Shown: positions 923 through 16,004 of the stretch, piece after piece | How positions within the stretch are numbered: position 1 is the first letter of the stretch | Layout of the letters: every line of letters begins with the position of its first letter | Origin: Clostridia bacterium | GTDB taxonomy: Bacteria; Bacillota; Clostridia; Christensenellales; Aristaeellaceae | DNA length: 35,681 bases | Assembly (NCBI GenBank): GCA_017469265.1 | Contig: JAFUGS010000001.1 | Location: forward strand, 1-35,681 | Reading direction: 5' to 3' | Notes under the pieces: generated by a model | Told to the model about the DNA's origin: nothing | Databases searched by the model: none | The model's input: only the letters and a program-made list of their open reading frames with translations | Position numbers and translations under genes: made by a program

Positions 923-3835
923 TCAGGCGAAGAGATCCCGGATGTCCTGCTCCGTGAGGGCGGAAAGGGCGCTTTCCCCAGGGGTGATGAGGCGGTCGAA
1001 GAGGGCCTTTTTCCGCTCGCCCAGCTCCACCACCTTTTCCTCGATGCTGTCGCCCGTGACCAGGCGGATCACATCCACGGTCCGGGTCTGGCCGATGCGG
1101 TGAGCCCGGTCCGTGGCCTGATCCTCGGCGGCGGGATTCCACCAGGGGTCATAATGGATGACCACGTCCGCGCCGGTGAGATTCAGGCCGGAACCGCCGG
1201 CCCGGAGGCTGATGAGAAAGACCTGCCCCTCCCCGGCGTTGAAGCGCTCCGTGAGGGCCAGACGTTCCCCGGCGGGGGTGTGGCCGTCCAGGTAGAGGGT
1301 ATCGTATCCTTCCTGCCGCAGGCGGGGCATCAGGAGCTTCAGCAGGGAGGTGAACTGGCTGAAAATCAGCACCCGGCGGCCGCTGCGGATCATGGCGGGC
1401 AGGAGCTCCATGAGCATCTCCTGCTTGCCGCTGCCGCCCTGATAGCCATCCAGCACCAGGGAGGGATGACAGCAGATCTGCCGCAGCTCCGTGATGGCGG
1501 AGAGGACTTCGATACGGCTGCGGCTGACGCCTTTTTCCGCCATGAGATTCTGAATTTTCGGCCGCAGGCGCTCCATGGAGGCCTGGTACACATTGCGCTG
1601 CTCCGGGGTCATGGCGGCGGTCAGACGGGTTTCCAGCTTCTCCGGCAGCTCGGAGAGCACATCCTGCTTCAGGCGGCGGGTGAGAAAGGGGCGGATCCGC
1701 ATCCGCAGATCCTCGCTGTTCATGCCGTCCTGATAGCGGCGGATGAAGGAGGCGTAGGGCGGGAGATAGCCCGGGAGGACGAAATCGAAGATGCTCCACA
1801 GCTCCCCGATGCCGTTTTCCATGGGGGTGCCGGTGAGGGCCAGGCGGGTGTCCGCCTTCAGCTTTTTAACGGCGGAAGCCACCTGGCTGCCGGCGTTTTT
1901 GATGTTCTGCGCCTCGTCCAGAATGGCGAAGCGGAAGGGATAATCCTCTATCCAGGCAATGTCCCGGCGGATGAGGGGGTAGCTGGTGATGACCACATCC
2001 ACATCCCCGTGCTCGGTCACATGGCGCCAGAGACGCTCCCGCATGGGGACGCCGCCGGAGATGACGACGGCGCTGAGGTCCGGCGCGAAGCGGTTCAGCT
2101 CGCTGAGCCAGTTATAGGTCAGGCTGGTGGGGGCCACCACGAGGCTGCAGCGGTCCGGCAGGCGGGTGGCCCGGAGCAGGGCGATGATCTGGACCGTTTT
2201 GCCCAGGCCCATGTCGTCCGCCAGGACGCCGCCCATGCGCAGCCGGTCCAGGGTATAGAGCCACTGGTAGCCCCGCTGCTGATAATCCCGCAGGGGGATG
2301 CCGGTGGCCGGCGCGGGGGCGGGAAGGCGCTGGCCGGAGATGGGTTCCGCCACCTCCGTGACGGAGGCGTCCGCCTCCACGGGGGCGCCGGTTTCTGCCA
2401 GCAGGCGGAGCAGATAGCCCGCGCGGTAGGTCCGGAGCACCAGGGCGTCCCGCTCCACACGGGCGCCGTCCCGGAGGGCGGCCTCGTACAGGTTTTCCGC
2501 GGGGCCCTGCCAGTCCTTCTCCAGCCCTTCCAGATTCAGGAAGGAGCCGTCCTTCAGCCGGAAATACTTCCGGGAGCGGCTGAGGGCCTCCAGCAGGCCC
2601 AGCACCTCGTCCGAGGGGAAATCATCAATGGTGAGGCTCAGGAGAAGGCTGCCTTCCTCCATCCGCAGGCCGCCGCGGATCCCCGGGTGCTTCACGATCA
2701 TGCGGCGGAAATCCTTGCTGAGAAAGACCTGGCTGACCTCGCTGAGGCGGTTGACCCCCTCGGAGAGGAACTGGAAGAGGGCATCCGGCTGGGAGAGGCG
2801 GATGTTTTCCTTCGTCACCCGGAAGCCGGCGTTGGCCAGGATGTCCAGCACGGCCTGCTCCCGCTCCGCGTCTCGGAGGAGCAGCTTTTCCCCTTTTTCC
2901 AGGGCGATTTTTTCCTTCACCGGGGCGAAGGGATTCAGCTCCGTGTCCCCGTAGCGGAAGAGAACCTGGGCTACGACGCTGCGGCCGTCCCGATCCAGAT
3001 AAACCCGGGACTCCAGGGGCAGACGGACCAGCATGGCCCGGAGCTCGTCGCTCATTTCCACCGCGGTGCGAAGCTTCAGATAGGGCAGGATTTCCCCCAC
3101 CACCTGCTCCGTCGCAGGGAGAGGATAATCCATGAGGACCTGACCGCCATCCTGACGGTCCAGGAGAAAGCGGATCAGGGCCCGCTGGACGGGGGGGATG
3201 TACTGCGCCCTGTCCTCCAGGAGGAGAAAGGCGCAGTCCGCGGTGAGGGGCCGGAGGAAAGGCGGCAGGTGCGCCGCCAGGTGCAGGCCCCGGGGGGTCA
3301 TGCGGCATTCCACCCGCAGGGGGAGGAGCGCCTCCGGAATGGAGGACAGGGAAAGGACGGAGCCGTCTTCCCGAAGGACGCGGAAGGGCTGATCGCGCAG
3401 CAGGGAAAGCAGATCGGCCGCGAAGGCATCCGGCAGGCGCATGAGCCGCACCTCGGCCTGGGAGGGCATCCAGCGGCCCAGCTCCCAGGCGGAGACCAGG
3501 CGGGACAGGAGGGCGAGGACGCGCTGATCCTCCTCCCGAAAGCGCATCCAGGCGGGCTCGTAGGTGAAGCGGCTCTGGAAGGACAGGGGGACGCCCTCCC
3601 GCCAGGCCTGGAGGAAGGCGGGAAGATCCTTGACCACATACCATTTCTGGCTGCCGATCCGGAGACCGACGCGGAGGAAGGCGTCCTTCTCCCGGGGCGG
3701 GACAAGGGTCACCTCCAGGCGGAGATTGGCTTCGCCGGGCATGCTGCCTTCCACCAGGGTCAGGAGCTCCTCCCCGCGGAGGGGCGCCTGGCGCTGCAGC
3801 TGGATGTCGGAAAAGAGGGCGTCGTTTTCGGGCAT
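923..3835 (-). CDS. SNF2-family DEAD/DEAH-box ATPase (helicase-like)
   Basis: A 970-residue Swi2/Snf2-type ATPase. The family translocates on double-stranded DNA and displaces proteins; bacterial members such as RapA act on RNA polymerase, but the role of this type is not settled. The N-terminal ~500 residues resemble the bacterial SNF2-associated region. The motor has Walker A DDMGLGKT near residue 543, motif II DEAQ near 640, motif III TGTPMENGIGELW, then the C-terminal lobe with LIFSQFTSLL, SLRAGGSGLNLTGAD and the HRIGQ motif VI near 912. Many clostridial relatives carry an N-terminal SWIM zinc finger; no CxC...CxH is visible here. The ATG at 3833-3835 follows AGGAGG; an in-frame TTG 33 bases upstream is less likely. 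It is the last gene of the leftward arm, 99 bases after the CotH gene, so it may be co-transcribed with it. Confidence 0.93.
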   Translation of the reverse strand: MPENDALFSDIQLQRQAPLRGEELLTLVEGSMPGEANLRLEVTLVPPREKDAFLRVGLRIGSQKWYVVKDLPAFLQAWREGVPLSFQSRFTYEPAWMRFREEDQRVLALLSRLVSAWELGRWMPSQAEVRLMRLPDAFAADLLSLLRDQPFRVLREDGSVLSLSSIPEALLPLRVECRMTPRGLHLAAHLPPFLRPLTADCAFLLLEDRAQYIPPVQRALIRFLLDRQDGGQVLMDYPLPATEQVVGEILPYLKLRTAVEMSDELRAMLVRLPLESRVYLDRDGRSVVAQVLFRYGDTELNPFAPVKEKIALEKGEKLLLRDAEREQAVLDILANAGFRVTKENIRLSQPDALFQFLSEGVNRLSEVSQVFLSKDFRRMIVKHPGIRGGLRMEEGSLLLSLTIDDFPSDEVLGLLEALSRSRKYFRLKDGSFLNLEGLEKDWQGPAENLYEAALRDGARVERDALVLRTYRAGYLLRLLAETGAPVEADASVTEVAEPISGQRLPAPAPATGIPLRDYQQRGYQWLYTLDRLRMGGVLADDMGLGKTVQIIALLRATRLPDRCSLVVAPTSLTYNWLSELNRFAPDLSAVVISGGVPMRERLWRHVTEHGDVDVVITSYPLIRRDIAWIEDYPFRFAILDEAQNIKNAGSQVASAVKKLKADTRLALTGTPMENGIGELWSIFDFVLPGYLPPYASFIRRYQDGMNSEDLRMRIRPFLTRRLKQDVLSELPEKLETRLTAAMTPEQRNVYQASMERLRPKIQNLMAEKGVSRSRIEVLSAITELRQICCHPSLVLDGYQGGSGKQEMLMELLPAMIRSGRRVLIFSQFTSLLKLLMPRLRQEGYDTLYLDGHTPAGERLALTERFNAGEGQVFLISLRAGGSGLNLTGADVVIHYDPWWNPAAEDQATDRAHRIGQTRTVDVIRLVTGDSIEEKVVELGERKKALFDRLITPGESALSALTEQDIRDLFA

Positions 3836-3934
3836 GGTAACAGGACCTCCTGAAAGGAAGTGTATCAACTTTATAAAATTCGATTTAGATGGGGCATTTT
3901 CCTTTCTGGAAGGAGCGGAAAGAGACAGATAAAA

Positions 3935-6664
3935 TCAAAGGCTGCCGCGGTAAAGATCTCCAAAGAGCGACAGCGCCTCCTGATCGGACAGGTGGAAAAA
4001 GTCCACGGTTTCCCGCACCAGGCGGAGGCGGCGGTCCGTGGCGCCGCTGCCGATAAAGCGCCGGATTTCCTCCGCGTCCGCGAGCCACTTCTGGGAGCTG
4101 GCCTTCCGCGCGGCCCAGGTGGCGGGCATGTCGGGCATGACCTCCGCCAGCAGCTGATCCAGCAGCGCGCTGACCCGGGCCGGATCGAAGGTCACCCGAA
4201 GGTGATAGGCGAGGCGGGAGAGAAAAGCCTGGCGGAAATCCGCGTTTTCCAGAAGGCTGGTCAGAATCAGGTTGTTGTGGGTGGCGGAATCATAGGGGGT
4301 GTACGCGTAGTACGTCAGGGAGATTTTCTCCTCGTTTTTCATCCGGAATGCCCAGTCCAGATCATACATGATCAGGTGCCAGCGGCTGTCCGCCGCGTCC
4401 CGGCAGCGGGTGACGCGAAAATTGGGATAATCCGTGTCCCCGGTGTAGGCGCGCCAGATGTAATAATCGATAAAGCTGTCCGGGTTGACCTGGGAGCAGA
4501 CATAGGCGTAGTTTTCCGCGTCCCGCAGATCATGCTCCCGGCAGAAGCGGTTCAGGGCGGTCCAGTCCTCGCCGGAGCCCTCCTCCACCTCGTAGGCCCG
4601 GTAGATGATGTCCACCTCATCCTCGCTGCCGCCCAGGGTGCTGGCCACGAAACGGGGGTTGATATTCTCCCGGAGATAATAGACGCCGTAAAAGGCCTCA
4701 TTGATCCACAGATTGACGGGCCGGGCATGCTGGCAGAGCACGGCGGGCATTTCCTCCGCGCCCAGGAGGGTGCCCAGCACGTCATGGGTCGGATTGAAAA
4801 CGGAGCCGACCCGGAGATTCAGGGAATCAAAGCGGTTTTGATCGCTGTCGGGGAAGATTTTCGCCGAAGGCATGCCCCCGTACATGCTTTTGAACTTCAG
4901 CTTCCACCCGCAGTATTTCCGTTCCCGGGTGGTCTGGCCGGAGATACCCAGACCGCATCCTGCGGAAAAAAGGAGGGATCCGTCCGGATTGATCATGGTC
5001 GCGACCGCGGGAACCGCGTATCCTTTTTCCAGCGGGTGGGCCAGGAGGGCCCAGGAGCTGCCGCTGAAGGAAGGGGCGGGAAGGGACACGGTCAGGCTCG
5101 GCAGGGCGTAAGCGCTGTCGAACCGGTACAGCGCGGCAGCGGCCTCGGAGGCCAGGGCGTCCGGCGGGAGGCTGACCGCCCGCAGGCAGGTCGTTCCGCT
5201 GACGGAAATGGGGCCTTCGTACAGCAGGCTGGAGGCCGTGGGCACGGAGCCGTCCAGGGTATAATAGATCGGTTCCTCTCCGGTGACGGAAACGGTCAGG
5301 GGCTGAGCATAGCCGCCGGAAGGAACGGAAAAAGCCGGCTTTTCAGCCACGCGGGAAAAGCCAGGACCGTTGCTTTCCCGCGGGGTAAAGGCGGAAAAGT
5401 ACCGATCCTGGCCATGGCTGTCCCGACCATAGGACACGTCCACCGGAAGGGCGGGAATCTTCAGGGAGTCGACCAGGTTTCCCGCCGCGTCCGAAAGGTA
5501 AAGGGTTTCCCCGGCGGAGGAGAGCTTGAAGGGCGCCCGGCCTTTCTGGCCCAGCCCGTCGCAGAACACCAGGGTGTACTGCCCCGGCGCCAGCTTTCCG
5601 GAGGGAAGGGCATAGCGGCCCAGCTTTTTTTTGCTGTCGGAGAGACGGAAGTCCGCCAGCTGTACGGTTTCCGGCCCGGCATTCAGGATTTCCACCACAT
5701 CCAGGCCGCGGGCGCCGTCGGCGGCGCAGCCCTGAAAATTGCCGGTCAGCACCTCGCTGATGATCAGCCCGGACCGGAGAACGGTGGAAACGGCGGGCGC
5801 TTCCTCCGGGAAGGAATCGGCAAAGGGGATATAGGTTCCCGAGAGGAAGGATTCCTTCATGACCTCGTAATGAGGATGCCGGCGCCAGCCTCCCTCCGTG
5901 GGTTCCCCCTGGAAGCAGAGGGAAGCGTCGGGGTACAGGGCCTGCAGCTCCTTCAGATCGCTGCGGCGCAGATTGCGGTGGCCGCTCATGCAGCGGCTGA
6001 CCCAGAGGCGCCGGGCGGCGGGAAAGTGGGTCAGGGTTTCCGGATCCGCCAGATCCAGATAGGCCACGTTGATATCCATCAGGTGGGGCAGATCATACAG
6101 GGGGCTCAGATCCGTAATGGGATTGGAGAAAAGCTCAATGTATTCCAGATTCCGCAGATCCCGCAGGGGGGACAGATCGGAAACCCGGTTGCAGGCGAGG
6201 ATCAGGACACGGAGCTGACGCAGATTCCGCAGGAAGGAAAGATCCTCCACCACGTTGTGGCCCAGATCCAGGGCCCTCAGCTCCGTGCAGTACTTCAGGA
6301 CCTCAAAATCCCCGCTGGTGTGGGTGAAGCAGTTCCCGTGGAGGGTGGAGAAGGCGGTCTGATCCGTCCGGACCGTATGGCCCTCAAAACGGCCGGGGAT
6401 ATGGATGGTCCAGCCGAAGGTGATGCCCGGGTACCGGGCGGACAGATACTCGATCTGCGGCTTTTCCACCGTGGTGGCGAACATATCCACCCGGGTCAGG
6501 GCGGGATGGGCGTCCAGAAGGGCGGTCAGCTCCTCCATGGAGAGGATCCGTTCCCCCAGATCCAGGGCTGTCCCGTCCGGGGAAAAGGCGTATTCGTCCG
6601 CCAGGGCCAGGGACGCGGCGCAGACCAGCATGGACAGCAGGAGCAGAAAAAGGTGTTTCTTCAT
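3935..6664 (-). CDS. Secreted CotH-kinase protein with leucine-rich repeats, lamin-tail and chitobiase-like domains
   Basis: A 909-residue exported protein. A signal peptide (MKKHLFLLLLSMLVCAASLALA) is followed by leucine-rich repeats around residues 115-200 (LRALDLGHN, LRVLILACNRVSDLSPL), a lamin-tail domain from about 296 (LIISEVLTGN...VVEILNAG), a chitobiase/hexosaminidase C-terminal-like domain near 440 (YYTLDGSVPT) and a CotH kinase domain from about 580. The kinase shows VNLWINEAFYGVYYLREN near 650, GDTDYPNFRV and the metal-binding MYDLDWAF near 766. CotH proteins are atypical kinases that phosphorylate secreted proteins (spore coat CotB/CotG in Bacillus). The ATG at 6662-6664 is chosen because it begins the signal peptide; an in-frame GTG at 6685 lacks a binding site. 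It lies 23 bases after a phosphodiester glycosidase gene and mirrors the gene pair on the other strand. Substrate unknown. Confidence 0.9.
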   Translation of the reverse strand: MKKHLFLLLLSMLVCAASLALADEYAFSPDGTALDLGERILSMEELTALLDAHPALTRVDMFATTVEKPQIEYLSARYPGITFGWTIHIPGRFEGHTVRTDQTAFSTLHGNCFTHTSGDFEVLKYCTELRALDLGHNVVEDLSFLRNLRQLRVLILACNRVSDLSPLRDLRNLEYIELFSNPITDLSPLYDLPHLMDINVAYLDLADPETLTHFPAARRLWVSRCMSGHRNLRRSDLKELQALYPDASLCFQGEPTEGGWRRHPHYEVMKESFLSGTYIPFADSFPEEAPAVSTVLRSGLIISEVLTGNFQGCAADGARGLDVVEILNAGPETVQLADFRLSDSKKKLGRYALPSGKLAPGQYTLVFCDGLGQKGRAPFKLSSAGETLYLSDAAGNLVDSLKIPALPVDVSYGRDSHGQDRYFSAFTPRESNGPGFSRVAEKPAFSVPSGGYAQPLTVSVTGEEPIYYTLDGSVPTASSLLYEGPISVSGTTCLRAVSLPPDALASEAAAALYRFDSAYALPSLTVSLPAPSFSGSSWALLAHPLEKGYAVPAVATMINPDGSLLFSAGCGLGISGQTTRERKYCGWKLKFKSMYGGMPSAKIFPDSDQNRFDSLNLRVGSVFNPTHDVLGTLLGAEEMPAVLCQHARPVNLWINEAFYGVYYLRENINPRFVASTLGGSEDEVDIIYRAYEVEEGSGEDWTALNRFCREHDLRDAENYAYVCSQVNPDSFIDYYIWRAYTGDTDYPNFRVTRCRDAADSRWHLIMYDLDWAFRMKNEEKISLTYYAYTPYDSATHNNLILTSLLENADFRQAFLSRLAYHLRVTFDPARVSALLDQLLAEVMPDMPATWAARKASSQKWLADAEEIRRFIGSGATDRRLRLVRETVDFFHLSDQEALSLFGDLYRGSL

Positions 6665-6687
6665 GGTGACAGGGATTCCTTCCACAT

Positions 6688-7629
6688 TTAATCCGCGCCA
6701 CCGGCGTCCGAATCCGGCATGGCGGAAGCAAAATACAGAATGTCGTTCACGGTCCGGTCGCTGGCGGTGGGCTGGCCCTTCAGCACCGTGTCGCCGAAAA
6801 CCAGCTGGGAGGAGTTGCCGCCGTCCAGGTTATAGGCCTGGAGGCAGCCGAGGGCGGCCATATAGTCGGCCAGCTCCTGCATGGTGGCGCCGGAGGAGGC
6901 TCCGCGGCCTTCCGCCACGGCCAGCACATAGGAGAGGGAACCCAGCTGGCCGATGGCGGAGCGGGGATCCTTGCGGTTCGGGGTATAGCTGTAATGAGGA
7001 TTGATGGCCTGCGCCCGGCCGTCCACCACGAGGGCGGGGCCGAAGGTGAAGGCGTTTATCACGTGATGGGCGGAAAACGCGTCCGCCAGAATGTCCAGCT
7101 GCTCCGCGTTCGTCTGGCGGGAGCCGGCCAGGATCAGATGAAAATCCCCCCGGTCGTCAATGAGCAGGACATCCTTCTGGCGGTAGGCCTTGTAACGGAC
7201 CTTCTGCCCCATGCGGTACTCCACGGAGGCCTCTTTGGCGTCATTGTTGTAGAAATCCCCGTTGATGGCCACCACCGCGTGGGCGGCCCGGGCCATTTTG
7301 GACACGCTGGCGGTGCGGCGGGAAAGGAGATTCCCCGGGTCGGCGGTATAGGTCCGCAGCTGGGCGGGGGAGGCGATCCGCACGAAGGCGAGGTGCCAGA
7401 TGACCCCTTCCTCCTCCCGGGTTTCCAGGCGGACCCGGATGGAAGGGTCCGCGTAGGTATCCCCGGCATAACCCGCGGGATCCGGCTCGGGGCCGGGGGA
7501 CAGGTCCCAGGGCAGGGTCAGGGGCGCGGTGAGCGCCGCGTCCTCCGCCCCGGCCGGGGAAAGAGGCAGCAGCGCCAGCGCCGCCAGCAGGCACAGAACC
7601 AGCGAAAGACGGGGAACATGCAAAGTCAT
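6688..7629 (-). CDS. Secreted phosphodiester glycosidase (NAGPA-like family), paralogue A
   Basis: A 313-residue exported protein. After MTLHVPRL comes a hydrophobic signal stretch ending SPAGAEDAAL. The mature part has the marks of the phosphodiester glycosidase family (named after the lysosomal enzyme that removes GlcNAc from mannose-6-phosphate): AINGDFYNND in the centre and YNLDGGNSSQLVFG near the C-terminus. Family members cleave sugar phosphodiesters; in bacteria they are exported, substrates mostly unknown. The ATG at 7627-7629 follows GGAAAGGAAAG and begins the signal peptide; the frame is open for 49 codons upstream but those codons cover the promoter. It is the first gene of the leftward arm, with CotH and SNF2 genes behind it, and is a diverged paralogue of the gene at 7763-8653 on the other strand. 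Confidence 0.88.
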   Translation of the reverse strand: MTLHVPRLSLVLCLLAALALLPLSPAGAEDAALTAPLTLPWDLSPGPEPDPAGYAGDTYADPSIRVRLETREEEGVIWHLAFVRIASPAQLRTYTADPGNLLSRRTASVSKMARAAHAVVAINGDFYNNDAKEASVEYRMGQKVRYKAYRQKDVLLIDDRGDFHLILAGSRQTNAEQLDILADAFSAHHVINAFTFGPALVVDGRAQAINPHYSYTPNRKDPRSAIGQLGSLSYVLAVAEGRGASSGATMQELADYMAALGCLQAYNLDGGNSSQLVFGDTVLKGQPTASDRTVNDILYFASAMPDSDAGGAD

Positions 7630-7663
7630 CACGCGCGCTTTCCTTTCCAAAACATCCGGAGCA

Positions 7664-7731
7664 ATTATATGCAATCCCGGTGGAATGCGCAAGCCGCGGC
7701 GGTTGCTTTTTGGGGGAAAGTGGGGTATCAT
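7664..7731. promoter_or_regulatory. Back-to-back divergent promoters for the two glycosidase-CotH arms
   Basis: Leftward: TTGCGC (7687-7692), 17 bases, TATAAT (7664-7669). Rightward: TTGCTT (7703-7708), 17 bases, TATCAT (7726-7731). Only 10 bases separate the two -35 boxes, so polymerases at the two promoters should compete, or one regulator could control both arms. No palindromic operator is evident. Confidence 0.8.
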
Positions 7732-7762
7732 GGGAGCCGTTCCGTGAGGAGAGGATGAAAGC

Positions 7763-8653
7763 ATGGGTAAGTTCAAAACGCTGATGATCGGCGCATTGCT
7801 CCTGATGACGGCGCTGCCGGCCGCCGGGCGCGGGGACGCGCTGCCGCTGACGGGCGCCGCCCCCTATCCGCCGGTGGAAAGCGCCCTGGGGGAGGACGGG
7901 CTCAGCTACGACGACGGGTCCATTCAGGTCCGGATTGAGCCGGAAGTGGTCAATGACACGAACATCTTCTGGGTTTCCGTGAAGATCACGGATCCCTCCC
8001 AGCTGCGGACCGCGCTGGCCGGCCCCAAAGGGTCCAAGGTGCTGGCCCAGCCCATGACCATCGCGAAGCGGGCGAACGCCGTGCTGGCCATCAACGGGGA
8101 TTTTTTTACCAGCCACAACAGCGGCGTCGTGTACCGGCAGGGGCAGATGATGCGGAATGTGCCGGCCTATACCCGGGACGAGCTGCTGATTGACGAGAAC
8201 GGGGACCTGCATATTCTGGCCTTCCCGCCCCATACGGGCAAGGCGAAGATCGCGGAGGCCATCGCCGCCTTTCAGGAGACCCACGAGATCCGGGAGGCGT
8301 TTGCCTTCGGCCCGGGGCTGATCATCGACGGGAAGGTGCAGGAATTCGACCACCGGGAGAAGGTTTCCTGCGACTATATGAACCGGGCGCAGCGGGCCGT
8401 TTTCTGTCAGACCGGGCCCATGGAGTACCTGTTTCTGGTGACGGAGGGGAAGGAGCAGTTCCAGCCCGGGTTCACGGTGCCGGAATGCACGGAGCTGCTG
8501 GTAAAACGGGGCGGAGTACAGCAGGCCTACAACCTGGACGGGGGCAACTCGGCGCAGATCGTTCTGTGCGGAGAAAAGATCAACGCCGCCCAGTACGAGA
8601 AGGCGAGAAACATCGCGGACATGATCTGCTTCGCGACCACGGTGCGGCCCTGA
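7763..8653 (+). CDS. Secreted phosphodiester glycosidase (NAGPA-like family), paralogue B
   Basis: A 296-residue exported protein of the same family as the gene at 6688-7629. A short signal peptide (MGKFKTLMIGALLLMTALPA) is followed by the conserved core: VLAINGDFFTSHNSG, RDELLIDENGDLH, FAFGPGLIIDGKV and, near the end, AYNLDGGNSAQIVLCG. The two paralogues share the order of motifs but differ widely between them. It has its own ribosome binding site (GAGGAGAGG) before the ATG and starts the rightward arm, 31 bases beyond the promoter. The following CotH gene has its own promoter just past this stop codon but may also be reached by read-through. The family suggests cleavage of a sugar-phosphate diester in wall or capsule polymer; the substrate is unknown. 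Confidence 0.88.
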   Translation: MGKFKTLMIGALLLMTALPAAGRGDALPLTGAAPYPPVESALGEDGLSYDDGSIQVRIEPEVVNDTNIFWVSVKITDPSQLRTALAGPKGSKVLAQPMTIAKRANAVLAINGDFFTSHNSGVVYRQGQMMRNVPAYTRDELLIDENGDLHILAFPPHTGKAKIAEAIAAFQETHEIREAFAFGPGLIIDGKVQEFDHREKVSCDYMNRAQRAVFCQTGPMEYLFLVTEGKEQFQPGFTVPECTELLVKRGGVQQAYNLDGGNSAQIVLCGEKINAAQYEKARNIADMICFATTVRP

Positions 8654-8729: not shown

Positions 8730-11700
8730 TTGGAACGGGAGCAGGGAAACAACGGGCTGCACGGGCGCAGGACCGCTTCCCGGGCCACGAAGGCGCGGCG
8801 CAGAAAGCAGCGGATGAACTTCCTGCTGCTGGCGGCCTTCGCGGCGGTGATCGCGCTGATCGTGCTGGTGACGCCGAAGGAGCCGACGCGGCGGGCCCGG
8901 TACACGGTGGGTACGGAGGACGGCAGCACCGGGGAAGGCGCGCGGCTGGTAAGCGAATACGAGGGGCTGGTGATCAGCGAGGTCATGCCCTCGAACCGGA
9001 CGGCCGTGACCGACGAGGACGGAAATTATCCCGACTGGGTGGAGATCTGGAACAGCTCGGATCGGGCGATTTCCCTGAACGGGGTGGGGCTCAGCGACAG
9101 GAGCGACAGCATCCGCTTCCTGTTTCCGGACATTACCCTGCCCGCGGACGGGCGGGTGATCGTGTTCTGCTCCAACAGCAACCAGGCTGTCCCGGGGATG
9201 CCCTTCCACGCGAAATTCAAGCTTTCCAGCGTGGGGGAGACGGTTTATCTGTACGACCCGAACGCCTATCTGATCGACAGCTGCAGATACCCGATTCTCG
9301 GCTCGGACGAGAGCTGGGCCCTGACGGAGGACGGATACAGGGGCGTGAGCTACTTCAGCCCCGGGTATCCCAACACGGAGGAAGGGCATAAGGCGTACCG
9401 GGAGAGCATCATGGTGACCGGCGGGGCGCTGGTGATCAACGAGGTCATGGCGGACGCCCTGACCGGCCTGCGGGATGAGGACGACGAGCTCAGCGACTGG
9501 GTGGAAATCTACAATACCACCTCCAGCGCCGTGAGCCTGGACAATTACGCCCTGAGCGACAACGAGGGCCGGCCGCTGAAATGGCGCTTTCCCAAGGGAG
9601 CCACGGTTCCGGGATACGGATACTACGTGGTTTTCTGCTCCGGGAAGGACAAGGTGGAGGCGGCCACCGGCGTGCCGCACACGAATTTCCGCCTCAGCGC
9701 GGAACAGGAGACGGTGCTGCTGGCGGACAGCCAGGGCCACGTGGTGGACCGGGTCATGATCGACAACCTGGCGGAGGACTGCAGCTACGGCCGGGGGGAG
9801 AACGGCACCATGCAGGTTTTCCAGACGGCGACCCCCGGGCTGCCCAACACCCTGCAGGGCTTCTACCAGATGGACATCAACCTGCGGGCGATGAACAAAA
9901 GCGGGGTTTACATCAGCGAGGTCATGGCCAGCAACGATTCCATTGTGACCTATCCCAGCGCGGGGAACACGGACTGGATCGAGCTGTACAATTCCGGCAC
10001 CCAGAGCGTGGATCTTTCCGGATACGGGCTCAGCGACCGGCTGACCCGGGGGCGGAAATGGCAGTTCCCCTACGGCACGCTGATCGGCCCCGGGGAATAC
10101 AAGATCGTCCTGTGCGACGGCACCCGGGGCTCCACGGACACGGGGACGCTGCACGCCAGCTTCAAGATCAACCGGACTGGGCAGGAGACGCTGGCGCTGA
10201 CTGACCCGGATGGGCGCATCCTGGACAAGATGATTCTACCGGAGCAGCGGACCGACGTTTCCTATGGCAGGACCCTGGGGATGTCGGGCTTTTTTTATTA
10301 TGATACGCCGACGCCCTTCCAGCAGAACGGGGAGGGCTTCACCGGATACACGGCGGCACCGGCCTTTACGGTTTCGCCGGGGCTGTACTACTCCACGGTG
10401 TATGTGGAATTCACCATCCCGGAGGGGACGCAGGTTTTCTACACCACCAACGGAGCGGAGCCCACGCAGAGCGACACCCCCTACAACGGGGAGCGGCTGG
10501 AGCTGAACTTCACCACGGTGCTGCGGGCCCGAGCCTTCGCGGCGGATCCGGGGCTGAAGGCCAGCGACATCCTGACGGGCACCTTCCTGATCAACACCTA
10601 TCACACGCTGCCGGTGTTCTCCCTGACGACGGACCCGGAAAACCTGTGGAACGAGACCACGGGCATGCTGGCGGACGGCAACATCCTGAAGGAGGCGCCG
10701 GGCAAGCTGCCCTTCAAGAACGCCACCTACCGGATCGTGAAGGACAGCGGCGCCCGGTTCCCGGTGCACGTGGAGATGTACGACACGGACGGGACGATGA
10801 TCCTGAACCAGGGGGCCCAGTTCAGCCTCATGGGGGACTACAGCCTGGACATGCCCCAGAAGAGCATGAAATTCCGGGCCAAGAGCCTGTACGGCGCCAA
10901 GACCTTCAACGCCGCGCTGTTCCCGGACCGGGAGTACACGGAGTACAAGAGCTTCGTGCTGCGCAACAGCGGGAACGACTCCATGTGGACCCGGCTGCAG
11001 GACGGCTTCGAGAGCCGGCTGCTGGACGCCTACGGGGCCACGGTGATCCACCAGGCCTGGCGGCCGGTGGCGGTGTACCTGAACGGGGTCTACTGGGGCC
11101 ATATGAACCTGCGGGAGCGGGTGGACAAATTCTTCGTGGCCCAGCATGAGGGGCTCACCTTTGACCAGGCGGACGACTTCGACATCCTGCAGGCCAGCGG
11201 CGCCACCAAGTACGGCAGCAACAAGGAATTCAAGGCCATGCTGAAGAAGATCCGGGAAGGGGATCCGGCGAAAAACCCGGAGGACCTGCAGTACATCCTG
11301 GACAACGTGGACGTGGACAACCTGTTTGAGTACCTGGCCCTGGAGATGTTCGTGGGCAACAGCGACATCGGCAACACCCGGTTCTACCGGCTGAAGGAGC
11401 CCGGCGGCAAGTGGAAATGGATCTGGTACGACGCGGACTACGGGCTGTTCATGTCCAACTTCGACAGCCCCAAGAGCTACACCAAGGCCAAGGGCATGGG
11501 CCAGCAGAACATCGACAACACCATCTTCCGGAAGCTGCTGAGCGTGCCGGAGTATAAGGACAAGTTCCTGTACAAGCTGGGGGACGTGTTCAAGTTTATG
11601 ACGACGGAAACCATGCTGCGGATTCTGGAGCCCCTGGTGGAGCAGATCACCCCGGAGATGGAGCTGCACTGGGCCCGCTGGGGCGAGGAGAACGACCAGA

Positions 11701-11897
11701 TGGTGTTGTCGGAGGTGCCCGTCACGGTGGACGGGGCCTACCGGTACTGGGAGAAGCGCGTGGAGCGGCTGCGGAACGTCTGCCGGAAGCGGCCGACCTA
11801 TCTGTGGGAAATGGTGCAGAACGCCTTCGACCTGACGGACGCGCAGATGGTGGAGTACCTGGGCGAGAAGCCGGAGATGCCGCCGGACGCGGTATAG
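8730..11897 (+). CDS. Membrane-anchored CotH-kinase protein with three lamin-tail domains
   Basis: A 1055-residue protein with a basic cytoplasmic N-terminus (RRTASRATKARRRKQR) and one membrane segment at about 29-48; there is no cleavage site, so it should stay anchored with the rest outside. Three lamin-tail domains start near residues 80 (LVISEVMPSN), 233 (LVINEVMAD) and 393 (VYISEVMASN). A chitobiase-like domain lies near 546 (VFYTTNGAEPT). The CotH kinase domain fills the C-terminal half, with YLNGVYWGHMNLRERVDKF near 782, GNSDIGNTRFYRL and WIWYDADYGLF near 897; the N/D-rich and DxD motifs are the expected ATP-Mg residues. The start is TTG 8730-8732, eight bases after GGAAAGGAGGGG. It precedes DUF4956, VTC and AAA+ genes with which CotH genes are often found. 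It probably phosphorylates an exported target, not identifiable here. Confidence 0.92.
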   Translation: MEREQGNNGLHGRRTASRATKARRRKQRMNFLLLAAFAAVIALIVLVTPKEPTRRARYTVGTEDGSTGEGARLVSEYEGLVISEVMPSNRTAVTDEDGNYPDWVEIWNSSDRAISLNGVGLSDRSDSIRFLFPDITLPADGRVIVFCSNSNQAVPGMPFHAKFKLSSVGETVYLYDPNAYLIDSCRYPILGSDESWALTEDGYRGVSYFSPGYPNTEEGHKAYRESIMVTGGALVINEVMADALTGLRDEDDELSDWVEIYNTTSSAVSLDNYALSDNEGRPLKWRFPKGATVPGYGYYVVFCSGKDKVEAATGVPHTNFRLSAEQETVLLADSQGHVVDRVMIDNLAEDCSYGRGENGTMQVFQTATPGLPNTLQGFYQMDINLRAMNKSGVYISEVMASNDSIVTYPSAGNTDWIELYNSGTQSVDLSGYGLSDRLTRGRKWQFPYGTLIGPGEYKIVLCDGTRGSTDTGTLHASFKINRTGQETLALTDPDGRILDKMILPEQRTDVSYGRTLGMSGFFYYDTPTPFQQNGEGFTGYTAAPAFTVSPGLYYSTVYVEFTIPEGTQVFYTTNGAEPTQSDTPYNGERLELNFTTVLRARAFAADPGLKASDILTGTFLINTYHTLPVFSLTTDPENLWNETTGMLADGNILKEAPGKLPFKNATYRIVKDSGARFPVHVEMYDTDGTMILNQGAQFSLMGDYSLDMPQKSMKFRAKSLYGAKTFNAALFPDREYTEYKSFVLRNSGNDSMWTRLQDGFESRLLDAYGATVIHQAWRPVAVYLNGVYWGHMNLRERVDKFFVAQHEGLTFDQADDFDILQASGATKYGSNKEFKAMLKKIREGDPAKNPEDLQYILDNVDVDNLFEYLALEMFVGNSDIGNTRFYRLKEPGGKWKWIWYDADYGLFMSNFDSPKSYTKAKGMGQQNIDNTIFRKLLSVPEYKDKFLYKLGDVFKFMTTETMLRILEPLVEQITPEMELHWARWGEENDQMVLSEVPVTVDGAYRYWEKRVERLRNVCRKRPTYLWEMVQNAFDLTDAQMVEYLGEKPEMPPDAV

Positions 11898-11922
11898 GGA
11901 AATTTGCCAAAGGCAGGAAAGC

Positions 11923-11951
11923 CGCGCCGTTCCCCCCGGGGGACGGGCGCG
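11923..11951 (+). other. GC-rich hairpin between CotH and DUF4956 genes
   Basis: GCGCCGTTCCCC pairs with GGGGGACGGGCGC with one bulge. No T-tract follows, so it looks like an mRNA stability or pausing element between operon genes, not a terminator. Confidence 0.4.
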
Positions 11952-11989
11952 GGAACGAAAACGCACAGACGCAGGAGGAATGAATCATC

Positions 11990-12694
11990 ATGGAAACCGG
12001 AGCCGGCAGCAGCCTCAGCAGTGTTCTGAAGAATAACGCGAGCCTGAGCGAGTACTTTACCAACCAGTTTGTGAGCCTGACGCCCTGGAAGATCCTGATC
12101 GGGCTGCTGATGGGCTGCCTGGTGGGGCTGATCATCGCCTTCGTTTACAAGCGGTGCTACCGGGGGGTGCTCTACAGCCCCAGCTTTGCCCTGACGCTGA
12201 TGATGCTGACGCTGATCACCACGCCGGTGGTCATGTACATCAAGAGCGACATCGCCCTGAGCATGGGCATGGTGGGCGCCCTGAGCATCGTGCGCTTCCG
12301 CACCGCGGTCAAGGATCCCATGGACACGGCCTACATGTTCTGGGCGCTGACCATGGGCATTCTGCTGGGAGCGGAACTGTACCTGCACGCCCTGATGGTG
12401 GTGCTGGTGATCAGCGTGATCCTGTTCCTGATGAGCTTCCTGAAGCTGGGGAAGGGGAACGCCTACCTGCTGGTGGTGCACTACGACGAGTACGCGGAGC
12501 AGGACATCACCCAGCTGCTGCGGCGCACCGTGAAGCAGCGGAAGCTGCGGTCCAAGACCGTGACCCGCAGCGGCGCGGAGATGACCGTGGAGGTCCGGCT
12601 GGACAGCAAGCAGGACCTGGTGGCCAATGTGCTGAACGTCGAGGGCGTGCACGACGCGACGCTGGTCGCCTGCCAGACGGAAGCGGGGGCGTAA
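11990..12694 (+). CDS. DUF4956 membrane protein
   Basis: A 234-residue integral membrane protein of the DUF4956 family. Hydrophobic segments lie at about 34-53, 65-83, 113-128 and 131-150. The most conserved stretch, GALSIVRFRTAVKDP (96-110), sits just before the third full segment and holds two arginines and a lysine next to the membrane. Residues 155-234 form a soluble C-terminal domain, probably cytoplasmic. The biochemical function is unknown; the family is repeatedly found beside VTC polyphosphate polymerase-domain and CotH genes, as here. The positive motif near the membrane and the coupling to VTC (three bases between the genes) make a polymer-translocating or anchoring partner a reasonable inference, not a demonstrated role. 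The ATG follows AGGAGG 11 bases upstream. Confidence 0.88.
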   Translation: METGAGSSLSSVLKNNASLSEYFTNQFVSLTPWKILIGLLMGCLVGLIIAFVYKRCYRGVLYSPSFALTLMMLTLITTPVVMYIKSDIALSMGMVGALSIVRFRTAVKDPMDTAYMFWALTMGILLGAELYLHALMVVLVISVILFLMSFLKLGKGNAYLLVVHYDEYAEQDITQLLRRTVKQRKLRSKTVTRSGAEMTVEVRLDSKQDLVANVLNVEGVHDATLVACQTEAGA

Positions 12695-12697
12695 GCC

Positions 12698-13408
12698 GTG
12701 GCCATGAACACCCTGCCCCTGCGGCACGAGCTGAAGTACTTCATCAACGAGATGCAGTACTACGTGCTCTCCGGCATCCTGGATCAGGTGCTGCAGCGGG
12801 ATCCCTTCGGGGACGAATACAACGAATACCACATCCGCAGCCTGTACTTTGACACGGCGTTCAATACCGCGCTGTTTGACAAGCTGGACGGAAACCCGAA
12901 CCGGGACAAGTACCGCATCCGGATTTACAACTTCAGCGACCGGACGATCAAAATGGAGTGCAAGACCAAGGTGGGGAGCCTGATCTCCAAGCGGAGCCAG
13001 ACGATTCCCAGGCTGCTGTGCGAGCAGCTGATGGCCGGGGATCCCACCGGGCTGGAAACCACCCGCAGCGGGCTGCTGAACGACGTGTACCGGGAGATGA
13101 CGGTGAACCTGCTGCGGCCGGTGGTGATCGTGGACTACGTGCGGGAGGCGTACCTGCACCCGGCGGAGGAGGTGCGCATCACCTTTGACAAGCAGCTGCG
13201 CACCGGGCTGTGGAGCAGGGATCTGTTCAACCCGGAGCTGCCCACCATTCCGCCCTTTGAGAACAACGAGATCATTCTGGAAGTGAAATACAACCAGTTT
13301 CTGCCGCCCTATATCCGGGATCTGCTGAACACCTACTGCCGGGGGGCCTGCAACAGCGCCATCAGCAAGTACACCTGGTGCCGGCGGTATGAGGAGCTGG
13401 AGGCCTGA
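12698..13408 (+). CDS. VTC-domain polyphosphate polymerase-like protein
   Basis: A 236-residue soluble protein that is essentially one VTC domain, the triphosphate-tunnel fold which in yeast Vtc4 makes polyphosphate from ATP. The basic tunnel residues expected from Vtc4 are visible: K13 in RHELKYF, R73 and R75 in KYRIRIY, K85/E87/K89 in IKMECKTK, K98-R99, R149 in DYVREAY, R160 with D164 in RITFD, and E195/K197 in ILEVKYN. SLYFDT near 49 is also typical. With all of these present, catalysis is likely, but the product (polyphosphate or another phosphate transfer) is inferred. It has no membrane segment of its own and follows DUF4956 by three bases. The start may be GTG 12698 or the ATG two codons later (12704). 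Confidence 0.9.
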   Translation: MAMNTLPLRHELKYFINEMQYYVLSGILDQVLQRDPFGDEYNEYHIRSLYFDTAFNTALFDKLDGNPNRDKYRIRIYNFSDRTIKMECKTKVGSLISKRSQTIPRLLCEQLMAGDPTGLETTRSGLLNDVYREMTVNLLRPVVIVDYVREAYLHPAEEVRITFDKQLRTGLWSRDLFNPELPTIPPFENNEIILEVKYNQFLPPYIRDLLNTYCRGACNSAISKYTWCRRYEELEA

Positions 13409-13429
13409 GCGGCAAGGAGGAGAAAAAGG

Positions 13430-15319
13430 ATGGAGGCCCTGATTTCCAAATGGCACCGGGAGCTGGAGCTTTTCAGCGGGATTAAGCCCCTGCTGATCTT
13501 CGAGGGCAACGTGCTGGACCAGTACCGCTACCCGGTGGCGGGCAGCCTGCGGCAGGACGAGATCGTGCCGCTGAGCCGGTACCTGCAGACCTATTTTCAG
13601 GACGAGGGATATGACCAGATTGTGTTCTACAGCAACCTGGTGGGCTTCGTGAATCCCTACGCGCCGGGGATGCTCCAGCGGTACGCGGAGCTGACGGGCG
13701 CCGCCGTGACCCAGGGGGCCATCCAGGCGGAATTCAAGGGCAACGACGCCAACACCGCGCCCAACGTGATCCGCCGGGCCATGAGCCAGCGGGAGGCCGC
13801 CACGGTGACGGTGCTGGAGATGGCCAGCCACTACATCACCACGCCGGAGCGCATGGACCAGCAGGACGTGAACAGCTTCAATATCCTGCTGCAGAGCGCC
13901 CTCAGCTCCGCCTGGGTGCGGACCCCCAACGGGAAGAAGCAGAATCTGCTGATCCTGCTGGTGAACAAGCTGAACGACCTGCCGGCCTGGTTCTACCTGA
14001 ACAACCCGGTGTGCAAAATCCTGGAGCTGGACGCGCCGGGCCGGGAGGAGCGGAAGCGCATGCTGGAGGGGGAGAACCTGGCGGGGTTTTTCTCCGGGAC
14101 GGTCTACCGCCGGGACATGCCCTACTACCGGGAGCATCCGGAGGAGCTGGAGCGGATCCGGGAGCGGTTCGTGGGCCTGACGGAGGGCCTCAGCTTTACG
14201 GAGCTGGAGGAAATGCGGCTGCTGAGCAAGCAGGAGGAAACCCCCATCCGGGACCTGTGCACGGTGGTGGACCTGTACAAGTACGGCATCAAGGAGAACC
14301 CCTGGAGCAGCCTGAGCATGGAAAGCCTGAAGACGGCGAAGCAGGACTTTGAGAAGCGCATCAAGGGCCAGGACGCGGCGCTGGAGCGGACGCTGGACGT
14401 GGTGAAGCGGGCGGTCACCGGGATGAACGGGGTCAACTCCTCCTCCACGGGCAAGCCCAAGGGCGTCCTGTTCTACGCCGGGCCCACGGGCACCGGCAAG
14501 ACGGAAACCGCCAAGGCCCTGGCGGAAAAGCTCTTCGGCGACGAGCGGGCCTGCGTGCGCTTTGACATGAGCGAATACGGCCAGAGCCACTCGGACCAGA
14601 AGCTGATGGGCGCGCCTCCCGGATACGTGGGATATGAGGCGGGCGGCCAGCTGACCAACGCGGTGAAGGAGAACCCCTTCTGCATCCTGCTGTTTGACGA
14701 GATCGAGAAAGCCCACAGCTCCGTGCTGGACAAGTTCCTGCAGATCCTGGAGGACGGGCGGATGACGGACGGGCAGGGGAAGACGGTGTATTTCTCCGAG
14801 ACCATCATCATCTTTACCAGCAACCTGGGCATCTACGTGAAGGACGCCTTTGGCAACCGGCAGCCCAACGTGACCATGGACATGGATTACAGCGAGGTGC
14901 GGACCCGGGTGCGGGGCGCCATTGAGGACTATTTCAAGCTGGAGCTGGGCCGGCCGGAGATCCTGAACCGCATCGGCGAGAACATCGTGGTCTTTGACTA
15001 CATCCGCAAGGAAGCGGCGCAGCTGATCCTGAAGAGCCAGGTGAACAAGATCATCGGGAACCTGCGGGAGCAGAAGAACATCCGGATCCGGATCGAGGAT
15101 TTCGCGTATCAGAGCCTGGAGGAGGCAGCCACCTTCGACCTGAGCAATGGCGGCCGGGGCATCGGGAACCAGGTGGAAAGCCTGCTGATGAACCCCCTGA
15201 GCCGGTGGATGTTTGACAACGGCGTGATTCAGGACGCGGAGATCGTGATCGAGGGCTTCGATACCAGCGCGAATCCCCCGGCCCTGCGCTGCAGGAAGGA
15301 GGAGGCGGCCCATGAGTGA
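13430..15319 (+). CDS. ClpB/ClpC-like AAA+ ATPase with a degenerate first half
   Basis: A 629-residue AAA+ protein. The C-terminal module is a complete Clp-type ATPase: Walker A GPTGTGKT (351-358), pore loop GYVGYEAGG (399-407), Walker B LLFDE (420-424), sensor 1 TSN (463-465), arginine-finger region GRPEILNRI (507-515) and a D2 small domain with sensor 2 GRGIGNQVE. The first ~290 residues look like another AAA-type fold (LLIFEG, VTVLEMASHY, NLLILLVNKLNDLP) but no Walker A is present, so this half probably does not hydrolyse ATP. There is no ClpN double repeat, ClpB middle coiled coil or IGF/L loop for ClpP, so it is more likely a remodelling factor than a protease partner. It sits 21 bases after the VTC gene and overlaps the next gene, implying a joint function. 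The ATG follows AAGGAGGAG. Confidence 0.9.
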   Translation: MEALISKWHRELELFSGIKPLLIFEGNVLDQYRYPVAGSLRQDEIVPLSRYLQTYFQDEGYDQIVFYSNLVGFVNPYAPGMLQRYAELTGAAVTQGAIQAEFKGNDANTAPNVIRRAMSQREAATVTVLEMASHYITTPERMDQQDVNSFNILLQSALSSAWVRTPNGKKQNLLILLVNKLNDLPAWFYLNNPVCKILELDAPGREERKRMLEGENLAGFFSGTVYRRDMPYYREHPEELERIRERFVGLTEGLSFTELEEMRLLSKQEETPIRDLCTVVDLYKYGIKENPWSSLSMESLKTAKQDFEKRIKGQDAALERTLDVVKRAVTGMNGVNSSSTGKPKGVLFYAGPTGTGKTETAKALAEKLFGDERACVRFDMSEYGQSHSDQKLMGAPPGYVGYEAGGQLTNAVKENPFCILLFDEIEKAHSSVLDKFLQILEDGRMTDGQGKTVYFSETIIIFTSNLGIYVKDAFGNRQPNVTMDMDYSEVRTRVRGAIEDYFKLELGRPEILNRIGENIVVFDYIRKEAAQLILKSQVNKIIGNLREQKNIRIRIEDFAYQSLEEAATFDLSNGGRGIGNQVESLLMNPLSRWMFDNGVIQDAEIVIEGFDTSANPPALRCRKEEAAHE

Positions 15320-16004
15320 GAAGATCGACCTGAACGCCGCCCAGAAAAAGCTGGCGGAGACCCTGAAGGGGATCGGCATGGATCTCTGGGGCACGGAGGA
15401 TCCGGAAAAGTGGGCGGAGCAGGCCTTTGACGAATCCGCCCAGGCCGCCCCGGCGGCGAAGCAGCCCCCGAAGGCGGAAAAGCCGGCCCCCATAGCGGAG
15501 AAAAAGGCGGACCTGTCCAACCTGTGGATCACGGCGGACGAGACCATTGACTGGACGGAAGCGCTGATTTCGGAATGGCCCCGGGACGGGCTGACGTCGC
15601 CGCGGCTGTGGGCTTTCTATCACCGGATGGCGGAAAAGGTGCTGCAGGGGGATCTGGCGGCCTACGTGGAGGTGCTGACCACCCTGAACCCCCTGGGGGA
15701 TCTGGCGGAATACGTTTCCGGCATGGTGCTGCGGACCCCGGCGGCGGAGCGGCTGGAATGCGAGTTTGAGTGCCGGCCGGAGGAGATGGAGAAGGACGCC
15801 CGGGGATACCTGGGGGCCCTGAGCGTCCGGGCGGCCCGGGATCTGCTGGCGGTGCTGCCGGTGGAGGAGGTCCACGTGACGGGCCGGATGGGCCAGGAGC
15901 AAAAGCTGGACGTCACCTTCCGGCGGAGCCAGATGCTGAAGCGGAAGATGGCCTTCCTGAACCCCGCGGATTTCGTGGAGGAATGCGGGGGGCAGATGAT
16001 GTAA
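15312..16004 (+). CDS. Unrecognised protein coupled to the AAA+ ATPase
   Basis: A 230-residue protein I do not recognise. It has an N-terminal helical segment (DLNAAQKKLAETLKGIGMDLWG), then an Ala/Pro/Lys-rich linker at about residues 43-66 (AQAAPAAKQPPKAEKPAP), a helical middle part and a mixed C-terminal region ending NPADFVEECGGQMM. There is no signal peptide or membrane segment, so it should act in the cytoplasm. Its ATG overlaps the end of the AAA+ gene by eight bases, strongly suggesting translational coupling and fixed stoichiometry. An adaptor or substrate-delivery subunit for the AAA+ protein is a reasonable guess from context only. Confidence 0.75.
   Translation: MSEKIDLNAAQKKLAETLKGIGMDLWGTEDPEKWAEQAFDESAQAAPAAKQPPKAEKPAPIAEKKADLSNLWITADETIDWTEALISEWPRDGLTSPRLWAFYHRMAEKVLQGDLAAYVEVLTTLNPLGDLAEYVSGMVLRTPAAERLECEFECRPEEMEKDARGYLGALSVRAARDLLAVLPVEEVHVTGRMGQEQKLDVTFRRSQMLKRKMAFLNPADFVEECGGQMM

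Follow-up and report, generated by a model that had tools for sequence, protein, structure and literature searches.

Within the window, by which we mean the whole 35,681-nucleotide stretch of DNA analysed here (contig JAFUGS010000001.1 of assembly GCA_017469265.1, Clostridia bacterium, a gut bacterium of the family Aristaeellaceae), five closely spaced genes encode a CotH protein, a DUF4956 membrane protein, a VTC domain protein, an AAA+ protein and a 230-residue protein. We lean towards reading them as two modules placed end to end: a membrane-docked VTC-DUF4956 unit that would make a phosphate polymer and serve the cell surface together with an exported CotH protein, and an AAA+ pair that would be a lineage-specific neighbour. 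CotH, DUF4956 and VTC (hereafter the trio) belong together as a widespread module, the AAA+ protein and the 230-residue protein form a separate pair, and the association of trio and pair is confined to a single clade, the two modules having been joined once. The genes are as follows.

8730..11897, forward strand: CotH protein, 1055 residues, with an N-terminal membrane anchor (27-52), LTD domains, a chitobiase-C/Fn3-like domain and a CotH kinase-like domain (702-1025)
11990..12694, forward strand: DUF4956 membrane protein, 234 residues, recognized by Pfam and hydropathy, with an RFR motif at 102-104
12698..13408, forward strand: soluble VTC domain protein, 236 residues, with a GTG start; an ATG at 12704 is also possible
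13430..15319, forward strand: AAA+ protein, 629 residues, with a degenerate AAA domain (1-290) without Walker A and a ClpB-D2-like domain (about 295-610) with ATPase motifs
15312..16004, forward strand: 230-residue partner of the AAA+ protein, of no known family; relatives also form the C-terminal part of DUF4236-like fusions

In the list of open reading frames the gaps from CotH to the AAA+ gene are 92, 3 and 21 bp and the last two genes overlap by 8 bp, which confirms the tight five-gene arrangement noted in the first-pass annotation of this DNA. AGGAGG-like sites precede the DUF4956, AAA+ and 230-residue genes, that of VTC being less clear, and to judge from spacing and these sites the five genes are likely to be co-transcribed. 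Promoter and terminator scans of the window gave signals no better than shuffled sequence.

Co-occurrence was assessed in a phylum sample of 199 genomes (requested completeness at least 90%) and a family sample of 150 genomes, where the genome tallies are complete and the individual matches are those listed. In the phylum sample VTC was present in 27 genomes, and these were also the ones with DUF4956; each has as many copies of one as of the other, giving 34 genes for either family. DUF4956 lies within 3 kb of 33 of the 34 VTC genes; the remaining VTC gene is near a contig edge, and its DUF4956 is near the edge of another contig. A CotH domain lies within 3.5 kb of 21 of the 34, and CotH was found in 24 of the 27 VTC genomes against 4 of the 172 others (one of the four under the cut-off). 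The chance values for co-occurrence, about 10^-33 and 10^-23, overstate independence because the genomes are related. VTC and DUF4956 likewise share the same 143 of the 150 family genomes, the seven lacking both being 60-77% complete, and CotH was present in 60 of 60 family genomes. Among 14 control genomes VTC and DUF4956 match the same three (Bacteroides ihuae, Corynebacterium glutamicum and Methanosarcina acetivorans), and CotH matches C. glutamicum, M. acetivorans and Bacillus subtilis.

The neighbourhood of VTC was compared in 40 regions from other genera or families, 20 from the family and 20 from the phylum sample. These were picked by hand from the matches listed, before their neighbours were inspected and away from contig ends where possible; two (G044 and G100) came from DUF4956 matches. 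DUF4956 stands beside VTC in all 40, CotH in 25 and a Cthe_2159-type gene in 10; CotH or Cthe_2159 is found in 34, so that the VTC-DUF4956 pair is usually accompanied by a third gene. A response regulator and a histidine kinase each adjoin 14 of the 40 regions, 3 from the family set of 20 and 11 from the phylum set of 20. Among 10 scanned neighbours of five VTC loci were two glycosyltransferases, in two loci, and one DHHW protein. These counts support DUF4956 as the constant membrane partner of VTC; that reading, offered at first pass, is much strengthened, and the co-occurrence statistics proposed there as a check extend the association far beyond the source genome. This genome also carries a second VTC-DUF4956 pair (L061:5118-11505), which lies with a Cthe_2159-type protein, a response regulator and a histidine kinase and has a NAGPA gene upstream.

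The AAA+ protein is far less widely distributed. Its N-domain was found in 26 of the 150 family genomes, against 143 for VTC, and beside none of the 40 other VTC regions. The 230-residue family was also found in 26 family genomes, and the two lie side by side in 24; G009 and G048 have the AAA+ protein without the partner, and G007 and, weakly, G094 the partner without the AAA+ protein. A pattern-based scan of genome contigs confirmed 104 AAA+ relatives, of which 80 were kept. The partner follows the AAA+ gene in all 60 loci outside the kinase clusters described below that have at least 800 bases downstream; among kinase loci with room, 4 of 13 carry the 230-residue family fused behind a DUF4236-like N-terminus, a name that we presume from the look of the sequence. 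In G007 the same kind of fusion (L013:16735-17757, forward strand) occurs in a genome with no match to the AAA+ N-domain.

The 80 AAA+ loci comprise 32 with DUF4956 or VTC upstream, 14 among genes of kinase-cluster type, 29 with neither (a class requiring at least 3 kb of upstream sequence) and 5 with too little upstream DNA. A quick tree of 77 rows places the AAA+ proteins linked to the trio (those of the window and of 29 among the 32 loci) in one clade, with a support of 99 in the SH-like approximate likelihood ratio test (SH-aLRT), and the kinase-linked proteins in a separate clade (14 rows, SH-aLRT 100). The midpoint root fits either descent of the pair from the kinase cluster or a sister relation to it. 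The suspicion at first pass that the AAA+ addition is unusual was well founded; with AAA+ beside VTC limited to one clade, its proposal of one five-gene system is not supported.

Gene order within the clade is instructive. All 28 clade loci compared, the window being one of them, carry CotH, DUF4956 and VTC in that order on one strand. The AAA+ gene comes directly after VTC in 13, at a median of 18 bp, while CapA separates the two in 11 and PIG-L in 4; a separate count of 30 loci with at least 2.5 kb upstream gave CapA in 14, PIG-L in 5 and neither in 11. The idea that a PIG-L gene had been lost from this slot in the present genome was dropped in view of the 28-locus counts. In 23 of the 28 loci the trio is immediately preceded, in the same orientation, by a gene for an SNF2 helicase (median 85 bp). 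In the window this gene is inverted; no SNF2 gene was found in the 20 family VTC regions (L142-L161). Since SNF2 is kept and PIG-L or CapA can occupy the slot, the clade maintains a longer gene order, and adjacency need not mean one machine. In all seven genomes of the window's genus in the family sample, the AAA+ and DUF4956 genes are on one contig within about 2.5 kb.

The kinase clusters (L059:2478-13925, L060:568-13855, L127-L136 and L138-L141, in Lachnospiraceae and Ruminococcus) contain a Ser/Thr kinase, a 430-residue protein of unknown type, an FHA protein with a zinc ribbon, a radical SAM protein, an AAA+ protein with a dead first ring and PP2C, sometimes with vWA, DUF6273 or the DUF4236-like fusion protein. 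Their content was read with Pfam in two genomes; one has a PP2C match under the cut-off, the other an FHA match under the cut-off. They share the AAA+ N-domain with the window at 47-52% identity but differ as large signalling clusters without a VTC, DUF4956 or CotH match. A literature search, with subscription journals mostly outside it, gave no description of these clusters among the 8 of 646 matches listed.

DUF4956 (PF16316) scores 48.2 bits in Pfam (cut-off 30.6) and has three hydrophobic stretches (27-57, 64-85 and 119-156). R102, F103 and R104 are retained in at least 10 of 11 aligned relatives, which bears out the conserved arginine motif. The protein has a weak likeness to MgtC (PF02308) of 20.8 bits, under the cut-off of 31.4. 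VTC (PF09359) scores 125.7 bits (cut-off 23), and a 14-row profile matches Vtc4 (7e-21) better than Vtc2 and Vtc3 (8e-11 and weaker); as a single-sequence query VTC found no solved relative. R73, R75, E87, K89, K98, R149 and R160 align with Vtc4 and are invariant in the 14 rows; we take these to be the Vtc4 catalytic residues. E195, K197 and K224 are also invariant but fall outside the main Vtc4 alignment. The basic tunnel residues are thus present as had been proposed, and their alignment supports a resemblance to catalytic Vtc4. Hydropathy gave no hydrophobic stretch in VTC, the AAA+ protein or the 230-residue protein, and VTC was the only Pfam match of its protein at E 0.1, so that SPX and membrane helices are absent from it. 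The eukaryotic VTC complex (Vtc4, PDB 3g3q and others; PMC10657179) shares the VTC catalytic domain with its tunnel residues and the need for a membrane part, whereas the window VTC is a soluble protein of 236 residues with no SPX match, its membrane part being supplied by a second protein from a different family.

CotH scores 112.2 bits in Pfam (cut-off 23.8), with LTD matched in three stretches. It has a single N-terminal hydrophobic stretch preceded by a strongly basic tail, from which, by the positive-inside rule, the bulk of the protein should face outside. A profile from 10 CotH domains matches Spore coat protein H (5jd9) at 2e-5, and a single-sequence CotH query found no solved relative. 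In the 10-row alignment the acidic residues of the motifs NLRER, GNSDIGN and YDADYG are invariant; the invariant E163, D246, D268 and D270 (numbering of the aligned domain) are presumably catalytic. The description as an anchored CotH kinase family protein therefore holds, the Pfam cut-off being exceeded and the acidic residues conserved, and we infer that CotH may act as a kinase at this locus.

The AAA+ protein scores 163.9 bits for AAA_2 (cut-off 27). A Walker A motif is present only at 351, in the second ring, and in none of 39 N-domains; the second ring has Walker A and B, a GYVG pore loop, sensor 1 and an arginine-finger motif. In these features it is like the double-ring unfoldases ClpB, ClpV and ClpC, and it differs from them in a first ring without Walker A, in a score for the NCBIfam ClpB equivalog of 259.3 bits against a cut-off of 1232.1, and in the second ring, where no ClpP-loop motif was found. 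By its motifs, then, the first ring is dead and the second ClpB-like. The predicted structure of the N-domain has a domain-wide match to AAA ATPases, and an AAA fold is predicted for it. Searches of solved structures gave best E values of 0.53 with the N-domain profile and 0.37 with that of the 230-residue family. The 230-residue protein matched nothing in Pfam at E 0.1, and the VIA matches of its model were generic and name no relative. A defence-system reading of the pair was set aside, the matches (PDC-M37B, DolB and weaker ones) being partial and restricted to parts of the ATPase region.

The trio itself is not new. CotH, a poly-phosphate polymerase and DUF4956 have been described as accessory genes of Gram-positive pel loci (PMC7112168), and the trio was examined in Streptococcus intermedius as SIR_1592-1594 (PMC12345266); the claim of a new system is accordingly too strong for these three genes. 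From the shared gene order we infer that SIR_1592, named MgtC-like in that study, is the DUF4956 gene. Deletion of the MgtC-like membrane gene increased Pel and deletion of CotH decreased it, and either deletion lowered aggregation in sputum medium by more than 50% (PMC12345266). According to the same text, its authors did not find the trio away from the Pel locus, a statement perhaps limited to streptococci. In the genomes that we surveyed the trio is common outside the Pel context: of 60 family genomes 59 have VTC and DUF4956, while PelG exceeded its cut-off in 5, exactly those with PelF, and matched 7 at E 0.001; in the phylum sample PelG was over the cut-off in 2 of the 27 VTC genomes. The window's genome (a 2.57-Mb assembly in 103 contigs, 91.75% complete) gave no PelF or PelG match, and a Pel function for this locus was rejected. 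The locus thus shares with pel loci the same three families side by side (PMC7112168) and differs in lacking PelG and PelF, in having CotH as a 1055-residue anchored LTD form, and in the AAA+ pair that follows. NELoc-2 of Clostridium perfringens (PMC2879425) also has VTC beside CotH, near a chitin-synthase-like gene, and differs in having two VTC copies; its available text names no AAA+ pair.

In the two-module reading, soluble VTC docked on DUF4956 would build a phosphate chain from ATP at the inner membrane face, and the chain, or a phosphate state set by it, would serve cell-surface assembly together with CotH, exported and anchored in the membrane; at other loci a carbohydrate-binding protein of the Cthe_2159 type would take the place of CotH. 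The AAA+ protein would be a cytosolic unfoldase built of two rings, the first dead and the second active, with the 230-residue protein probably as its adaptor; this second module is kin to the kinase-FHA-radical SAM-AAA+-PP2C cluster. One ancestor would have joined both modules and its descendants kept them together. Several points weigh against this reading. An extracellular CotH has no obvious ATP; 6 of the 40 VTC regions have no nearby CotH or Cthe_2159; CotH, DUF4956 and VTC are upstream of the AAA+ gene in all 26 clade loci with at least 6 kb upstream, which may exceed mere neighbourhood; and deletion of the polyphosphate-polymerase gene in S. intermedius had no reported effect (PMC12345266), so that the activity of VTC may be less important than one would expect from how well it is conserved. 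In a bolder version VTC and DUF4956 would synthesize and export polyphosphate, the exported chain would be the phosphate donor of CotH outside, where ATP is scarce, so that polyphosphate would drive the phosphorylation of extracellular proteins or glycans, and the AAA+ pair would have been recruited in the clade for turnover of the complex. We consider this improbable; the literature search, with the coverage given above, found no extracellular kinase using polyphosphate as phosphate donor. Improbable too, in our judgement, is one five-gene machine in which the AAA+ pair would build or remove the complex of CotH, DUF4956 and VTC. The constant trio upstream in the 26 clade loci, the short gaps on one strand and the co-location in seven of seven genomes of the genus speak for it. 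It is opposed by the rarity of the AAA+ protein relative to VTC in the family, by its absence from the 40 other VTC regions, by 34 AAA+ loci, 5 of them short-flanked, whose available sequence contains no VTC, DUF4956 or CotH, and by the SNF2, PIG-L and CapA genes that share the same neighbourhood. What stands of the first-pass interpretation is the trio association, DUF4956 as the partner of VTC and the likeness to Vtc4, and not the single system of five genes.

VTC might also be a subunit that binds or hydrolyses triphosphate and makes no long polyphosphate, and whose task, shared with DUF4956, would be to sense or regulate phosphate or ATP, often under two-component control. The sub-cut-off MgtC likeness of DUF4956, the two-component genes that adjoin 14 of the 40 pairs and the polymerase deletion with no reported effect would suit such a role, which we nevertheless think unlikely given the retained tunnel residues and a closer match to Vtc4 than to any other solved structure, Vtc2 and Vtc3 included. 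We are similarly doubtful of an accessory role in exopolysaccharide, in which the trio would tether or tune a matrix polymer and CotH would be a scaffold and not a kinase. Its published place beside Pel genes, the LTD and Fn3-like domains of CotH, the glycosyltransferases and DHHW protein near VTC, and PIG-L and CapA in the slot before the AAA+ gene all point that way; the scarcity of PelG in VTC genomes and in the family, and the conserved acidic motif residues of CotH, point away from it.

The genes on the other side of the trio are the following.

923..3868, reverse strand: SNF2 helicase, inverted and more distant from the trio than in the clade relatives
3935..6685, reverse strand: second CotH protein, outside the trio, with LRR and LTD and an N-terminal hydrophobic stretch
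6688..7776, reverse strand: NAGPA phosphodiester glycosidase
7763..8653, forward strand: NAGPA phosphodiester glycosidase, upstream of CotH

Two divergent NAGPA genes (6688-8653) therefore sit between two CotH genes. A NAGPA-type gene was found in 6 of the 28 clade loci, the window included, and elsewhere is located downstream of the block. For the SNF2 helicase the best NCBIfam model was the pilus-expression-regulating Snf2, with a score under the cut-off.

The one-to-one presence of VTC and DUF4956 names a testable membrane partner for bacterial proteins related to the polyphosphate polymerase of eukaryotes, and the trio is now placed outside the Pel context in which it was described. A tight five-gene run can comprise two modules of different origin, and the AAA+ pair is tied by descent to a kinase-FHA-PP2C signalling cluster.

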